Below, piece after piece: positions 57,108 through 62,140 of a stretch of 64,000 nt of DNA. Origin of the DNA: an uncultured Flavobacteriales bacterium (GTDB taxonomy: Bacteria; Bacteroidota; Bacteroidia; Flavobacteriales; CAJXXR01); assembly GCA_913063375.1 (NCBI GenBank), contig CAJXXR010000010.1:1-64000 (forward strand), given 5' to 3'. The position numbers were made by a program, and so were the translations under genes. The stretch's first letter is position 1. Each line of letters begins with the position of its first letter. The notes below the pieces were generated by a model that saw nothing but the letters and a program-made list of their open reading frames with translations, was not told where the DNA came from and made no database searches.

Positions 57108-59198
57108 ATGAAAAAATTACTAGTTGGCTTTTTAGTAAGTCTTTCTGCTTTTGCTCAAAATGGATATTGGCAACAAGCGGTTGATTATAAAATGGACATT
57201 CATCTGGATGTTGACAATAATCAATATTCAGGAAAGCAAGAATTGGCTTATACCAATAACTCTCCAGAAACTATAAAGAAGGTATATTACCATTTATATT
57301 TCAATGCTTTCCAACCGGGAAGTATGATGGATACTAGATCTAGAACTATTCAAGATCCGGATGGAAGAGTTGGGGATAAAATATTTCATCTTTCAAATCA
57401 AGAGAAGGGATATATAGAGCCTATTGAGATTATGCAAGATGGTATAAGTCTTTCGTATGAAATTGTAGGTACAGTGATGGAAGTAGAATTGGCAAAATCA
57501 TTGTTGCCAGGAAAAACCACAACTATTAAAATGAACTATAAGGCACAAGTGCCAGTTCAAATTAGAAGAAGTGGTAGAGATAACGCGCAAGGAATAGAAT
57601 TCACGATGACTCAGTGGTATCCAAAAATGGCTGAATATGATGAAGAGGGATGGCATTTGGATCAGTATATAGGTAGAGAGTTCCATGGTGTTTGGGGTAA
57701 TTTTGATGTCTGTATGACCTTGGATAGTAAATACATTGTTGGTGGATCAGGTGTTTTACAAAACCCTGAAGAGATAAAGGAAGCCAAGCATGGTTATCTA
57801 CACTATAACGGAAAGGTTCAGCCAAACAGATACACTAAAAATGAAAGTAAAAATACATGGCACTTTGTAGCAAATAATGTGCATGATTTTGCATGGGCTG
57901 CAGATCCAGATTATACACATAAGACCGTTACATTAGAAGATGGTCGTCAACTTCATTTCTTGTACCAAGAAAAGGATAATAAGGATGGAGAATGGGAAAA
58001 ATTGCAAGTTAAAATGCCTGCTATTTTCTTAGGAGCAAATGAATTATTTGGCTTATATCCATATTCTCAATATAGCTTTATACAAGGTGGAGATGGAGGA
58101 ATGGAATACCCTATGTGTACCATGGTAAAAGGTGGGAGTATTGGAACAGCTATCCATGAAATGATGCATTCTTGGTATCAAGGTATGTTGGCAACTAATG
58201 AAGCTAAATACGAATGGATGGATGAAGGTTTCACCGTATGGGCTAGTGAAGAATTGGAAGAGAAATTCCTGAAAAAGGAGGATAAAGTAGCCCATAGTGG
58301 TTCTTATAGAAATTATGATTTTTTAGTTCATTCCGACTTGGAAGAGGAGCCAATTTGTAATCATGCTGATACTTATCATTCTAATACCGTCTATGGAATT
58401 TCAGCCTATTCAAAAGGAGATATCTTTTTACAACAACTTTCTGATATTATAGGGAAGAAAAAGTTAATGGATGTCCTTAAGCGATACTATGATGTTTGGG
58501 CATTTAAACATCCAAATCCTGAGCGTTTTATCCGTATTGCTGAGCAGGAATCAGGAGTTCAATTGGATTGGTACCTAATGCAATGGACAAAAACCATTAA
58601 GCATATCGATTATGAAATAGCAGAGGTAAAAGAGGACAACGGTACTGGTTATGTCAAAATCGATCGAAATGGGCAGATGAGTATGCCGGTTGAAATGGAG
58701 GTTGAAATGAAGGACGGAAGAAAAGTAATGTATTATTTACCACTTTATTCTATGTATGGGAGAAAGCAGCTTTTCCCACTTGAATATGAACAAGTAAACG
58801 TAATCCCTGTACCTTGGACAGATCCTTATTCTATAGTTCGAATAAATGAAGCATTGAAAGATGTTAAGGCTATTCGATTAAATCCTTCAGACTTACATGC
58901 AGATGTAAATAAAATCAATGATTATATGATTCTTCCTACAGATATGGATTGGAAGAATAATGTACTGAAGAGAATTATTACGGAGAAAAAAGTCAAAAGG
59001 AAAAAGCCAGCTAAAAAGACTAAGGCTCAGAAAAAAGAGGAAAAGATGGCTCTTCGGAAACAAACCGAAATCGAAAAATATAAATTCGGGAACCTTGAAC
59101 GAAAGAAGCTTCGTGCTGAAAGGAAGTTGAAAGCAAAGGAAAGAAAAACGTATATAAAGAAAGAAGTTTCTTTTGTACAAGTAAGTAAAGTACAGTAG
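57108..59198 (+). CDS. M1 family zinc aminopeptidase with a basic C-terminal tail
   Basis: A 696-residue exported metallopeptidase. The signal peptide is KKLLVGFLVSLSAFAQ. The zinc site HEMMH (about 350-354) is followed 18 residues later by the third ligand Glu in EWMDEGF, the M1 pattern HExxHx18E. GGMEYP takes the place of the GAMEN exopeptidase motif, as in one M1 subgroup. From about residue 620 the protein has a Lys/Arg-rich tail (KKVKRKKPAKKTKAQKKEEK) that is not part of the peptidase fold and is not a T9SS sorting domain. Location is probably periplasmic. Confidence 0.9.
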   Translation: MKKLLVGFLVSLSAFAQNGYWQQAVDYKMDIHLDVDNNQYSGKQELAYTNNSPETIKKVYYHLYFNAFQPGSMMDTRSRTIQDPDGRVGDKIFHLSNQEKGYIEPIEIMQDGISLSYEIVGTVMEVELAKSLLPGKTTTIKMNYKAQVPVQIRRSGRDNAQGIEFTMTQWYPKMAEYDEEGWHLDQYIGREFHGVWGNFDVCMTLDSKYIVGGSGVLQNPEEIKEAKHGYLHYNGKVQPNRYTKNESKNTWHFVANNVHDFAWAADPDYTHKTVTLEDGRQLHFLYQEKDNKDGEWEKLQVKMPAIFLGANELFGLYPYSQYSFIQGGDGGMEYPMCTMVKGGSIGTAIHEMMHSWYQGMLATNEAKYEWMDEGFTVWASEELEEKFLKKEDKVAHSGSYRNYDFLVHSDLEEEPICNHADTYHSNTVYGISAYSKGDIFLQQLSDIIGKKKLMDVLKRYYDVWAFKHPNPERFIRIAEQESGVQLDWYLMQWTKTIKHIDYEIAEVKEDNGTGYVKIDRNGQMSMPVEMEVEMKDGRKVMYYLPLYSMYGRKQLFPLEYEQVNVIPVPWTDPYSIVRINEALKDVKAIRLNPSDLHADVNKINDYMILPTDMDWKNNVLKRIITEKKVKRKKPAKKTKAQKKEEKMALRKQTEIEKYKFGNLERKKLRAERKLKAKERKTYIKKEVSFVQVSKVQ

Positions 59199-59219: not shown

Positions 59220-59246
59220 AAAAGGGCACTCATGAGTGCCCTTTTT
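59220..59246. terminator. Bidirectional terminator between the M1 peptidase and asnA
   Basis: A perfect palindrome, AAAAGGGCACTCA (59220-59232) and TGAGTGCCCTTTT (59233-59245), with T-runs on both strands, between convergent genes. Confidence 0.87.
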
Positions 59247-59250
59247 GTAT

Positions 59251-60297
59251 TTATAATAGGTTGATTTTTTGCCCAGTTGTTTCCGATATTATATGCTCTG
59301 GCCATACACTGGCTTGGACCTCGCCAATATGTCTTTTCTTTAAAAGGAACATACACAAACGGGATTGTCCAATCCCACCTCCTATACTTTGTACGCAATT
59401 ACCATCCATAATCTGTTTGTGAAAGGGGAGTTTCAACCTATCCAAATGTCCAGTCAATTTCAACTGCATTTGTAGGCTTTCTTGATCCACACGTATTCCC
59501 ATAGAAGATATTTCAAAGGCAACTTGTAATATTGGGTTCCAAACGAGAATATCACCGTTCAATCCTCTTAAGCCTGTTAAAGAATCTATACTGGACCAAT
59601 CATCATAGTCGGGAGCTCTACCATCATGAACTTCTCCGTTTGATAGTAATCCACCAATACCAATTATAAATACGGCTCCTTTTATTTTTGCAATTTCATT
59701 TTCTCTTTCTTTAGGATTCAGCTCTGGATATTTTTGGAGTAATTCTTCCGCATGAATAAAGAATATATCAAGAGGAAGAATTGTATTTAAGTATGGATAA
59801 ATAGTTTTAAGGCTTTGCTCCGTTTTTCTAATGCATTTGTAAATTATTCTAACCTTGCTTTTTAGCGTTGCAATAGATCGTTCATTTGCGTTTAAATGTA
59901 CTTCCCAGTCCCATTGATCTACAAAAACAGAATGAATGTCTGAGAGGTCTTCATCTTGTCTTAGGGCTTGCATATCAGTATAGATTCCGCTGTCCTTTTC
60001 TATATCATATCGTGCTAACTTCTCTCTTTTCCATTTTGCTAGGGAGTGAACAACAACAGCATCTTTTTTCTCCAAGCCTTTGACTTGTACCTTTACGGCT
60101 TTTTCCAATCCACTGAGGTTATCATTCAAGCCAGTAGATTGTTGCACCAATAGTGGAGCTGCAATTTTTTGAAGCTGCAGGGATTCGCTTAATAGGTTTG
60201 AAAAATATTGTTTAATAAATTGAATGGCTTTTTCTGATTCAAAGCATTCCATTTTTTTTTCTGGGATCGTTGGATCCATTTTAGTTTTTGTGTTCAT
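59251..60297 (-). CDS. asnA: Aspartate-ammonia ligase (asparagine synthetase A)
   Basis: Makes asparagine from aspartate, ammonia and ATP; class II aminoacyl-tRNA-synthetase-like fold. The start is the ATG at 60295-60297 (MNTKTKMDPTIPEKK, 348 residues). A longer frame to 60339 would run through a terminator hairpin and is rejected. Family blocks include VFVDQWDWEVHL, KGAVFIIGIGGLLSNGEVHDGR, APDYDDWSS, NGDILVWNPILQ and the C-terminal SIGGGIGQSRLCMFLLKK that binds ATP and aspartate. It is preceded by two tandem predicted Asn-responsive attenuators (60317-60604), so its expression is probably controlled by charged tRNA-Asn. Confidence 0.95.
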   Translation of the reverse strand: MNTKTKMDPTIPEKKMECFESEKAIQFIKQYFSNLLSESLQLQKIAAPLLVQQSTGLNDNLSGLEKAVKVQVKGLEKKDAVVVHSLAKWKREKLARYDIEKDSGIYTDMQALRQDEDLSDIHSVFVDQWDWEVHLNANERSIATLKSKVRIIYKCIRKTEQSLKTIYPYLNTILPLDIFFIHAEELLQKYPELNPKERENEIAKIKGAVFIIGIGGLLSNGEVHDGRAPDYDDWSSIDSLTGLRGLNGDILVWNPILQVAFEISSMGIRVDQESLQMQLKLTGHLDRLKLPFHKQIMDGNCVQSIGGGIGQSRLCMFLLKKRHIGEVQASVWPEHIISETTGQKINLL

Positions 60298-60316: not shown

Positions 60317-60352
60317 AAAAAAAAGGCCCATTCATACAAGATGAACGGGCCT
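60317..60352 (-). terminator. Attenuator terminator 2, just upstream of asnA
   Basis: In minus-strand RNA, AGGCCCGUUCAU (60352-60341), loop CUUGU, AUGAAUGGGCCU (60335-60324), then seven U. It is a 12-base stem with one G-U pair, ending 19 bases before the asnA start codon. Confidence 0.87.
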
Positions 60353-60372
60353 AGAGTTTAAACAATAGTATA

Positions 60373-60382
60373 CCTGTTCACC
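60373..60382 (-). promoter_or_regulatory. Candidate antiterminator segment of attenuator 2
   Basis: GGUGAACAGG overlaps the UGA stop codon of leader 2. It can pair with 60349-60340 of terminator 2 (nine of ten positions, one G-U, one mismatch), and also with UUCAC (60393-60389) upstream in the leader codons. A ribosome at the stop codon would mask it. Confidence 0.6.
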
Positions 60383-60431
60383 GATGGAGTGAATTATTGG
60401 CATTACTATTATTTTGATTTATTTGGTACAT
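60378..60431 (-). CDS. Asn-rich leader peptide 2 of asnA (17 codons)
   Basis: Reads MYQINQNNSNANNSLHR and stop. Six of 17 codons are asparagine, all AAT. It begins four bases after the T-run of terminator 1 and ends 25 bases before terminator 2. It is too short to be an ordinary gene; its value is as a sensor of Asn-tRNA supply, by analogy with trp and his leader peptides. Translation has not been shown. Confidence 0.75.
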   Translation of the reverse strand: MYQINQNNSNANNSLHR

Positions 60432-60434
60432 AAC

Positions 60435-60471
60435 AAAAAAAAGCCTTCTCGATTTGTATCGAGAAGGCTTT
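60435..60471 (-). terminator. Attenuator terminator 1 of the asnA leader
   Basis: In minus-strand RNA, AAAGCCUUCUCGAU (60471-60458), loop ACAA, AUCGAGAAGGCUUU (60453-60440), then more U: a 14-base perfect stem. It cannot serve dnaA, which already has its own terminator 160 bases earlier. Confidence 0.88.
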
Positions 60472-60496
60472 GGCAATAGTTGTTTTTATCTAAAGA

Positions 60497-60604
60497 TTAG
60501 TGCACAAAAAAAGCTTCTCGAAATTCATAGAAATTCGAATTATTGAAGAAATTATTTTGCACAACTTGGATCATTTTGTCTTTGTTTGAAACAAACTTAG
60601 TCAT
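60497..60604 (-). CDS. Asn-rich leader peptide 1 of asnA (35 codons)
   Basis: An open frame from ATG (60604-60602) to TAA (60499-60497). It begins MTKFVSNKDK and its middle reads QNNFFNNSNF: six Asn codons, five of them within eight positions (17-24). Phe is also frequent (seven codons), which is noted as a caveat. The codons for Phe28 to Phe32 contain the candidate antiterminator segment. The stop lies 25 bases before terminator 1. Translation has not been shown. Confidence 0.7.
   Translation of the reverse strand: MTKFVSNKDKMIQVVQNNFFNNSNFYEFREAFFVH
60506..60523 (-). promoter_or_regulatory. Candidate antiterminator segment of attenuator 1
   Basis: In minus-strand RNA, UCGAGAAGCUUU (60521-60510) is almost a copy of the 3' arm of terminator 1, lacking one G. 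It can pair with the 5' arm over 12 base pairs with a single bulged C (60467). It can also pair with CGAAUUU upstream (60537-60531). It lies inside leader 1 after the Asn codons. Confidence 0.65.
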
Positions 60605-60633: not shown

Positions 60634-60670
60634 AAAAAAAAAGCTCATTAATTAAAATGAGCTTTTTTTT
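60634..60670 (-). terminator. Terminator of dnaA
   Basis: On the minus strand AAGCTCATT (60664-60656) and AATGAGCTT (60649-60641) form a stem followed by a long T-run (60640-60634). It starts directly at the dnaA stop codon. Confidence 0.85.
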
Positions 60671-62140
60671 TTAGTTGAAGATCAACTTCTTATTGATATC
60701 GTCTACATAATTCCTGAAAGTTTTGTCAATATCCATGAGGTTTTTGACAGTTTTACAGGCGTGCAGTACAGTGGCGTGATCACGTCCTCCATTTTGAGAA
60801 CCAATATAAGCCAGGGATTTTTTAGTGTATTGTTTAGCTAGGTACATTACTATTTGTCTCGCTTGAACAATATTTCTTTTCCTTGTTTTGGATTTTAATT
60901 GTTCCATGCTAAGCTCAAAATAGCGACATACTGCTTTTTGAATCATTTCAATAGATACCTCGTTAACAATCTTCTTAACGTATCTATCAACTACTGATTT
61001 CGCTAGTTCAACATTTATTTCCTTCTTGTTTAGAGAAGCTTGAGCAATTAATGAAATTAAAGCTCCTTCTAGTTCTCTAACATTTGAAGTAATGCTGTAA
61101 GCTAAGTATTCAATTACATCTTCTGGTAACTCGATACCATCCTTATACATTTTCTTGCGAAGGATTGCAATTCTCGTTTCCAAAGCTGGCATTTGAAGGT
61201 CAGCAGATAATCCCCATTTAAATCTAGAAAGCAAACGTTGCTCCATTCCTTGCATATCAACAGGTGCTCTATCTGAAGTAAGAACCAATTGTTTCCCTTG
61301 TTGATGCAGGTGATTAAATATGTGGAAAAATACATCCTGAGTCTTTTCCTTTCCAGCAAAGAATTGAACATCATCGATGATTAAAACATCAATCATCTGG
61401 TAGAAATGAACAAAGTCATTTCTTGTATTATTACGGATAGCGTCAATGAATTGCTGAGTGAATTTTTCAGCAGAAACATATAATACTGTCTTGTCAGGGT
61501 AATTGTCTTTTATTTCAATACCTATTGCATGTCCAAGGTGTGTTTTTCCTAGACCAACTCCTCCATACAAAAGAAGTGGGTTGAAAGAAGTTCCTCCTGG
61601 TTTTTTTGAAATTGCAATACTGGCAGATCTTGCAAGACGGTTACAATCTCCTTCAATAAAATTGTCGAAGATGTAATTTGGGTTTAGTTGAGATTCAACG
61701 TGAATCTTTTTTAAGCCTGGTATAACGAAAGGGTTTTTGACAGCATCTGAACTAGTCGAGATGTCTATTGTACCTTTGTTAAACTTAGTCGCTATTCTTT
61801 CTGCAACCTGAACACCTTTTTGAAGTGTAGGTTTTGGTAAAGAACTAGGTATTTTTACCGTTGGTGAATCACTATTTCCATAGGTATTCTCCATAACAAT
61901 GCTATAAACAAGTTTTGCATCCTGTCCCAGCTCTCTTCTGATAGCTGCACGGAGCAATTTGATATAATGTTCTTCTAACCATTCAAAAAAGAATTTACTA
62001 GGAACTTGAATATGCAAAATATCGCCTTTCAATTTGATAGGCTTTATTGGCATAAACCAAGTCTTGAAACTCTGTGGACTTATATTATCCTTGATGAAGT
62101 CTAGACAACATTCCCAAACATACTGTGGGGTCTTGTTCAT
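60671..62140 (-). CDS. dnaA: Chromosomal replication initiator DnaA
   Basis: An ATP-dependent initiator that opens the replication origin. The 489-residue protein has domain I (YVWECCLDFIKDNISPQSF), a linker, the AAA+ domain with Walker A GGVGLGKT (193-200), Walker B VLIIDDVQFF and sensor region, and the domain IV DNA-binding signature NGGRDHATVLHACKTV. The adjacent genes are asnA and a GH2 gene. The 698-base region upstream shows no clear DnaA-box cluster, so the origin need not be here. Confidence 0.97.
   Translation of the reverse strand: MNKTPQYVWECCLDFIKDNISPQSFKTWFMPIKPIKLKGDILHIQVPSKFFFEWLEEHYIKLLRAAIRRELGQDAKLVYSIVMENTYGNSDSPTVKIPSSLPKPTLQKGVQVAERIATKFNKGTIDISTSSDAVKNPFVIPGLKKIHVESQLNPNYIFDNFIEGDCNRLARSASIAISKKPGGTSFNPLLLYGGVGLGKTHLGHAIGIEIKDNYPDKTVLYVSAEKFTQQFIDAIRNNTRNDFVHFYQMIDVLIIDDVQFFAGKEKTQDVFFHIFNHLHQQGKQLVLTSDRAPVDMQGMEQRLLSRFKWGLSADLQMPALETRIAILRKKMYKDGIELPEDVIEYLAYSITSNVRELEGALISLIAQASLNKKEINVELAKSVVDRYVKKIVNEVSIEMIQKAVCRYFELSMEQLKSKTRKRNIVQARQIVMYLAKQYTKKSLAYIGSQNGGRDHATVLHACKTVKNLMDIDKTFRNYVDDINKKLIFN

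Follow-up and report, generated by a model that had tools for sequence, protein, structure and literature searches.

Two predicted asparagine leader-peptide attenuators in series between dnaA and asnA in an uncultured Flavobacteriales bacterium

The window analysed here is a stretch of 64,000 nucleotides from the genome of an uncultured Flavobacteriales bacterium. Its minus strand carries, in this order, dnaA, a terminator-like hairpin, a short leader frame (leader 1) with a terminator, a second leader frame (leader 2) with a second terminator, and asnA. The upstream neighbour dnaA lies at 60671–62140 (TIGR00362, 520.1 bits, E = 5e-156). The hairpin at the dnaA end (60634–60671) consists of a 16-pair stem, with three G-C pairs, and a T tract. 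The downstream gene asnA begins at ATG 60297 and occupies 59251–60297 (TIGR00669, 416.9 bits, E = 5.9e-125). It encodes aspartate--ammonia ligase, which makes the amino acid whose codons fill the two leaders. Another terminator-like hairpin is found at 59220–59245, between the convergent ends of asnA and a plus-strand gene at 57108–59198.

An earlier note on this DNA described two frames dense in asparagine codons in the dnaA-asnA gap. Its counts are right: there are six Asn codons among 35 in the minus-strand frame at 60604–60497, and six among 17 at 60431–60378 on the same strand. The start given there for leader 1, at 60604, needs correction. An in-frame ATG 30 nt further on, at 60574, is more likely to be the start, because a TAnnTTTG box at 60599–60592 precedes it by 25 nt, a spacing similar to that in related units. 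This box, TAAGTTTG (60592–60599, minus strand), is the predicted sigma-A -7 box of the asnA transcript and is located inside the 35-codon frame (60497–60604), so that the transcript would begin downstream of ATG 60604. Leader 1 is probably the 25-codon MIQVVQNNFFNNSNFYEFREAFFVH (60497–60574), which contains five Asn codons. These codons form region 1, AAT AAT TTC TTC AAT AAT TCG AAT, at 60533–60556. Leader 2 is MYQINQNNSNANNSLHR (60378–60431).

In Flavobacterium psychrophilum TAnnTTTG is the sigma-A -7 consensus and the median 5' UTR is 24 nt, according to the sections consulted of the paper on this species (PMC9723704). Other asnA loci allow the box to be compared; loci, genomes and families are labelled L, G and f, and f64 is the family of genome G116. 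Outside f64 a TAnnTTTG box is found no more than 45 nt from the leader ATG in 11 of 14 first units, the window included, compared with 2.9% of random 45-nt stretches from the same loci. It lies 24 to 36 nt upstream of the leader in 10 of these 11 boxed units. The count omits L099, a near-copy of L034, and the window is not independent evidence for the box because ATG 60574 was chosen on account of it. Among the first units of f64 the strict box is present within 90 nt upstream in one of 35, and a relaxed box within 60 nt in 18 of 35.

Each unit was said to contain a strong hairpin with a U tail, and the folding energies bear this out. Terminator 1 with its U tract (regions 3 and 4, 60435–60471) has a 14-pair stem and an energy of -21.4 kcal/mol (z -7.2). 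Terminator 2 with its U tract (60317–60352) has a 12-pair stem and an energy of -19.0 kcal/mol (z -6.1). For both terminators none of 200 shuffles was as good. It had also been proposed that a segment near the end of each leader can pair with the 5' arm of the terminator, and such a pairing was found in both units. In the first, TCGAGAAGCTTT near the end of leader 1 (antiterminator strand 1 or region 2, 60510–60521, within the leader-1 frame) pairs with AAAGCCTTCTCGA of terminator 1 (60459–60471) at -14.5 kcal/mol, an energy equalled by one of 200 shuffles. In the second, antiterminator strand 2 (GGTGAACAGG, 60373–60382), which overlaps the leader-2 stop codon, pairs with CCCGTTCATC of terminator 2 (60340–60349) at -13.7 kcal/mol, with none of 200 shuffles as good. 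With the terminator 3' arm left out of the fold, each antiterminator stretch was matched by three of 200 shuffles.

The protector (1:2) hairpin proposed for unit 1 fared differently. A hairpin at 60519–60537 is present in the predicted fold, but shuffled sequences do equally well (z -0.4 and -0.01), and 92 of 200 shuffles were as good when the short hairpin was folded alone. The predicted protector hairpin of unit 2 (TTCAC..GTGAA, 60377–60393) reaches -4.2 kcal/mol alone, with four of 200 shuffles as good; the 60-nt stretch folded was not better than shuffles (64 of 200). A protector hairpin clearly beats shuffles in the first units of L044, L120, L088, L004 and L138. Judged by sequence, both units combine an Asn-rich frame with a predicted intrinsic terminator and a predicted, mutually exclusive antiterminator.

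An AT-rich gap could yield AAT codons and two ordinary terminators by chance. Small frames this rich in asparagine do occur in the same genome: 31 of 4,017 were found in 371 kb (19 stretches, neighbours overlapping by 200 bases) when the terminator condition was dropped. In the window, four of 777 small frames contain at least five Asn in 20 codons, and two of the four are leaders 1 and 2. The combination of frame and terminator is another matter, since none of the 72 small-frame-plus-terminator pairs in the 371 kb contains at least five Asn in 20 codons. No other Asn-rich leader was detected in this 371 kb; the frames there with at least five of one residue are rich in Ile, Leu, Gly or Ser. 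The pair filter returned 13 pairs in the window, and at least three Asn were found only in leaders 1 and 2. Other lineages also have the arrangement upstream of asnA or asnB, with covariation in its helices, as described below. We regard chance as a negligible explanation for the two units.

The asparagine content of such pairs was also compared across 847 kb of fetched asnA and asnB loci. At least five Asn in 20 codons were present in 53 of 248 frame-plus-terminator pairs, which are not independent because the fetched loci include many close relatives. The 53 pairs involve 52 frames, spread over 47 loci. All but two of the pairs (51) precede asnA; the exceptions, in L164 and L167, precede asnB. 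When the pairs are not selected for asparagine, this residue accounts for 24.6% of the leader composition in the 73 pairs upstream of asnA, compared with 3.8% in the remaining 175; the figures of 28% and 4% refer to leaders preselected for asparagine. Asparagine is by far the most enriched residue in the 73 unselected pairs.

The asnA gene is scarce near the window. It was found in two of 60 relatives and in 25 of 395 genomes of the class, the window's own genome being included in both counts and two of the 25 being weak fragments. It is present in 46 of 150 genomes of f64, and the order of G328 has it in five of 46. Close relatives that carry asnA did not turn up, and the one same-family genome listed among the relatives, G001, is without it; conservation is therefore across families only. 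Conservation had been put forward as the check on the two units, and the outcome is mostly favourable: Asn codons, terminators and antiterminator pairings recur in distant Bacteroidota, but close relatives with asnA in which to follow them were not found.

Besides the window, Asn units are found before asnA in L004 and L062 (Bacteroidales), L028 (Cesiribacter), L044 (Flavobacterium), L087 (f17), L088 (f36), and L097, L137 and L138 (f48). The search of f64 gave an Asn unit in 34 of 44 asnA loci, and further units are present in two f64 loci of the class search, L090 and L096, and, by eye, in L180. A weaker unit with four Asn and without the antiterminator signal occurs in L034, from Rhinopithecimicrobium (Sphingobacteriaceae in the tree labels), and in L099, which contains a 400-base piece of L034 exactly. 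L099 comes from G308, a genome of the window's class, and this link places the window in Bacteroidota. At the threshold of at least five Asn, units are present in the window's own locus (1/1), in five of 23 loci of the class search (the own locus left out, two of the five belonging to f64), in 33 of 44 of the f64 search, in two of four of the f48 search and in four of 25 loci with Bacteroidota titles. The locus of a relative, L002, has none (0/1), and nor do the 55 loci with other titles. Outside f64 most asnA loci are without such a unit. In a quickly built tree of AsnA with 137 rows, six changes account for the label 'unit', compared with a mean of 31.4 for shuffled labels; the window's place on this tree is unsure because its row has a long branch.

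A covariance model of the first units was searched against the 395 class genomes. Four known asnA genomes and the window came top, followed by many weak matches. The next 25 loci scanned (L204–L228), all within the best 30, include four with a frame of at least four Asn and a terminator (L204, L205, L206 and L210, the last being a known asnA locus) and 21 without. In L206 a 42-codon frame rich in Lys and Asn, with a terminator, precedes an asd-like gene (aspartate-semialdehyde dehydrogenase by look). In f64 loci such as L113, L123 and L173 a second GC-rich segment, resembling a hairpin, recurs by eye between the Asn unit and asnA; it has no Asn-rich leader.

The antiterminator helix was examined across 56 units, 35 of them from the single family f64. 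A unit was credited with an antiterminator when at most 10 of 200 dinucleotide shuffles matched it. This mark was passed by 48 units: in f64 by 34 of 35, and elsewhere by 14 of 21. It was missed by L004 and the first unit of L088 (11 shuffles each), the second unit of L097 (18), L167 (22), L164 (38), L034 (91), L099 (93) and L122 (195, the script having mislocated the Asn block). In 23 hand-picked representatives, one to six per family, the pairings between a unit's own strands average -14.2 kcal/mol and swapped pairings -9.9 kcal/mol; none of 100,000 permutations was as good.

Covariation was assessed in an alignment of 28 first units selected from the 56. In the antiterminator 94.2% of cells are paired and four of eight pairs have changed on both sides, a number reached by two of 500 shuffles. 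Pairing falls to 60.7% and 70.5% when the partner is slid by one column; the +1 slide also has four pairs changed on both sides, in more cells (eight versus six), with only 70.5% of cells paired. In the terminator 96.4% of cells are paired and seven of ten pairs have changed on both sides (none of 500 shuffles).

The peptide sequence that follows the Asn codons is less constant than the RNA. In f64 the same RNA segment, GGAAGGCTATTG, is read after the Asn block in different frames (WKAIAP and GRLLV). The residues after the Asn codons thus shift frame while the RNA segment is kept, as in NNLFRDWKAVVHI and NNLFRDGRLLV. In the three first units of f48 the frame ends before region 2 does. The Asn codons remain in frame and the rest drifts, which is what codon sensing predicts and is unlike the behaviour expected of a functional peptide. 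The frame shifts and compensatory changes speak in favour of what the earlier note set out to test, namely drift of the other leader residues with the Asn codons and both hairpins conserved.

T-boxes are known before asparagine genes in Bacillota. This precedent raises the possibility that a T-box, a riboswitch or an RNA-binding protein senses asparagine upstream of asnA and that the Asn-rich frames are incidental. A scan of 20 asnA loci carrying Bacillota titles revealed no T-box. Neither the window nor any of 20 related loci has an Rfam match that reaches the gathering threshold, and the Asn codons hold their frame while the residues after them drift. We consider such a sensor very improbable here, though less so than a chance origin of the units.

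Leaders rich in other codons have been found at pheA. In the window's own genome, pheA (PF00800, G000:C25) is preceded by three tandem Phe-rich leaders, MYTFVFYMKHITENKAFSFEAFFFNRKTQA, MNNLVSTFRFFGFFFFRKEGAMS and MNQNTQQNFSFFGFFFFKWKSEAVD, each with a terminator (L282, 3599–4050 of G000:C25). The three antiterminators were equalled, in order, by 16, 119 and one of 500 shuffles, and the middle one is unproven because of the 119 matches. This pheA is followed by an aminotransferase-like gene and then by an apparent DAHP synthase gene, both named by eye from the translation. A scan of 34 PF00800 loci showed six others (L237, L253, L254, L255, L258 and L259) to have one aromatic-rich frame with a terminator just upstream of the PF00800 match, a placement made by position only.

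The glutamine-type gene asnB provides a second comparison. In f10 an Asn-rich leader with a terminator is found before asnB in three of four loci (L164, L165 and L167), the frame of L165 having four Asn per 20 codons; the other 16 of the 20 asnB-type loci examined have no Asn unit. One of the three f10 units passes the antiterminator mark, and two (L164 and L167) miss it. The codons of the leaders follow the downstream gene, and codon sensing is supported by this.

The leaders might instead sense a general slowdown of translation, or several amino acids, and not asparagine alone. Leader 1 in its 25-codon form contains six Phe as well as five Asn, and the asnA leaders of f48 mix Asn and Phe where pheA is situated downstream of asnA. 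Across the 73 pairs upstream of asnA, however, asparagine is enriched 6.4-fold and phenylalanine 1.2-fold, and pheA in the window's genome has its own, separate Phe-rich leaders. We therefore think a broader signal of this kind unlikely.

In the three f48 loci L229, L231 and L232, pheA and an aminotransferase-like gene stand downstream of asnA. A Phe-rich leader with a terminator is present between asnA and pheA in L229, and none was detected there in L231 or L232. In genome G430 (L205 and L230) pheA stands behind an Asn/Phe-rich leader like the first unit of asnA, followed by a Phe-rich leader. No asnA was found in this genome, and its pheA frame holds one in-frame stop. An Asn pair that has turned into a Phe pair was considered for the G430 leaders (L205) and set aside: in the light of the f48 pheA loci, these leaders more probably consist of a first unit of the Asn type and, after it, a pheA unit.

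Two units in tandem are present in six loci: the window, L028 (its second unit added by hand), L088, L097, L137 and L138. On the AsnA tree the tandem loci fall at four places; the label 'tandem' needs four changes (shuffled mean 5.9), three of them forced by starred branches. Pro-Pro follows the Asn codons in five of the six second leaders, and the window's second leader has a C-rich segment at this place. In the window, region 2 of unit 1 pairs with the arm of unit 2 at -4.0 kcal/mol, compared with -14.5 kcal/mol for its own arm, and region 2 of unit 2 pairs with the arm of unit 1 at -8.9 kcal/mol, compared with -13.7 kcal/mol for its own. Because this cross-pairing is poor, the two units are not a fresh duplication.

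It could be that one unit alone controls asnA, the other being a decaying or redundant copy. In the f64 search no locus is listed with more than one Asn unit, and this unit stands well ahead of asnA, so one may suffice; in one f64 locus, L172, a single frame is listed with two terminator matches. Tandem units are nevertheless present in six loci, both antiterminators and both terminators of the window beat shuffles, and the poor cross-pairing indicates that the units are not recent copies. Control by a single unit is improbable, if slightly less so than the sensing of several amino acids.

We conclude that the dnaA-asnA gap contains two predicted ribosome-mediated transcription attenuators in series, which likely permit transcription of asnA only when charged tRNA-Asn is scarce; we put the probability of this reading at roughly 0.87. 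The recurrence of the arrangement in distant Bacteroidota makes it likely that the pair switches asnA on only at low charged tRNA-Asn. The recurrence, the antiterminator pairings, the compensatory changes and the presence of AsnRS all support the earlier reading of ribosome-mediated attenuation at Asn codons. AsnRS (TIGR00457) is over its cut-off in all 15 genomes checked, the window's own included, and free asparagine can therefore set charging. GatB is present in seven of the 15, again including the window's own genome, and an indirect route to Asn-tRNA may exist in these seven.

In the proposed mechanism, transcription would start just after the TAAGTTTG box at 60592–60599. With ample Asn-tRNA the ribosome would reach the leader-1 stop codon and cover region 2, allowing terminator 1 to form. 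When Asn-tRNA is short, the ribosome would halt at the Asn codons, region 2 would pair with the 5' arm of the terminator, and transcription would continue past it. The same decision would be taken again at leader 2, ahead of asnA. We infer promoter use, leader translation, stalling, the asparagine response and any gain from two gates. The earlier suggestion that two gates multiply repression is arithmetic that assumes their independence. It is conceivable, at somewhat less than even odds, that Bacteroidota build arrays of attenuators for the same signal, with two Asn gates here and three Phe gates at pheA, as a form of serial logic. Read-through would be required at all gates, which would make repression tight and the switch steep and responsive to starvation only, without a repressor protein.

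Leader-peptide attenuation of the trp, his, leu and phe operons is textbook knowledge. The asnA units resemble these attenuators in having a short frame rich in codons for the product, a competing antiterminator and terminator, and a stop codon near region 2, going by the parts consulted of a survey of attenuators in Actinobacteria (PMC1262725). They differ from them in their likely specificity for asparagine, in occurring in Bacteroidota and in standing twice in series. The main text of the same survey contains no word beginning 'asparagin' (PMC1262725).

Rfam gives only weak matches below threshold to known amino-acid leaders, Phe_leader at 22.8 bits (threshold 55) and Trp_leader at 18.0 bits (threshold 41). 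Bacteroid-trp RNA (RF01692) is presumably linked to trp, to go by its name. It is similar to the asnA units in being a candidate structured RNA of Bacteroidetes, according to the portion consulted of its description (PMC2864571), and differs in having no match in the window at the Rfam gathering threshold. The leaders of F. psychrophilum share the phylum, the proposed mechanism and the kind of -7 box; strong indications that operons for amino acids are preceded by leader-peptide attenuators are reported in the sections consulted (PMC9723704). The word 'asparagine' is absent from the main text of that paper and no tandem attenuator is described in the text examined (PMC9723704). A map of B. thetaiotaomicron mentions short frames reminiscent of leader peptides, in the part consulted (PMC7366714). 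An asparagine version would support leader-peptide attenuation in a phylum for which the print consulted gives only hints. Such a version, present at asnA and in a single family also at asnB, would add an amino acid to attenuation as well.

Neither an asparagine leader attenuator nor a tandem for the same amino acid was met in the literature searched, an absence that is weak as few subscription journals were covered. This agrees with the earlier note, to which asparagine-specific and tandem attenuation were likewise not known. Going by that literature, the mechanism is classical, and the asparagine specificity and the same-signal tandem are what did not appear in it and would be new. Arrays for one signal, two Asn units and apparently three Phe units, pose the question of whether stacking sharpens or deepens the response. 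The Salmonella mgtCBR leader is the nearest known tandem, with two leader frames and two attenuators in one leader RNA, and its tandem attenuators for different signals are called a singular example by their authors in the text consulted (PMC3641672). Judged by sequence, the Asn-richness of both asnA leaders speaks against an arrangement of the mgtCBR type. The mgtCBR attenuators answer different signals, ATP and proline, according to the same text, whereas both asnA leaders are rich in the same codon (PMC3641672).
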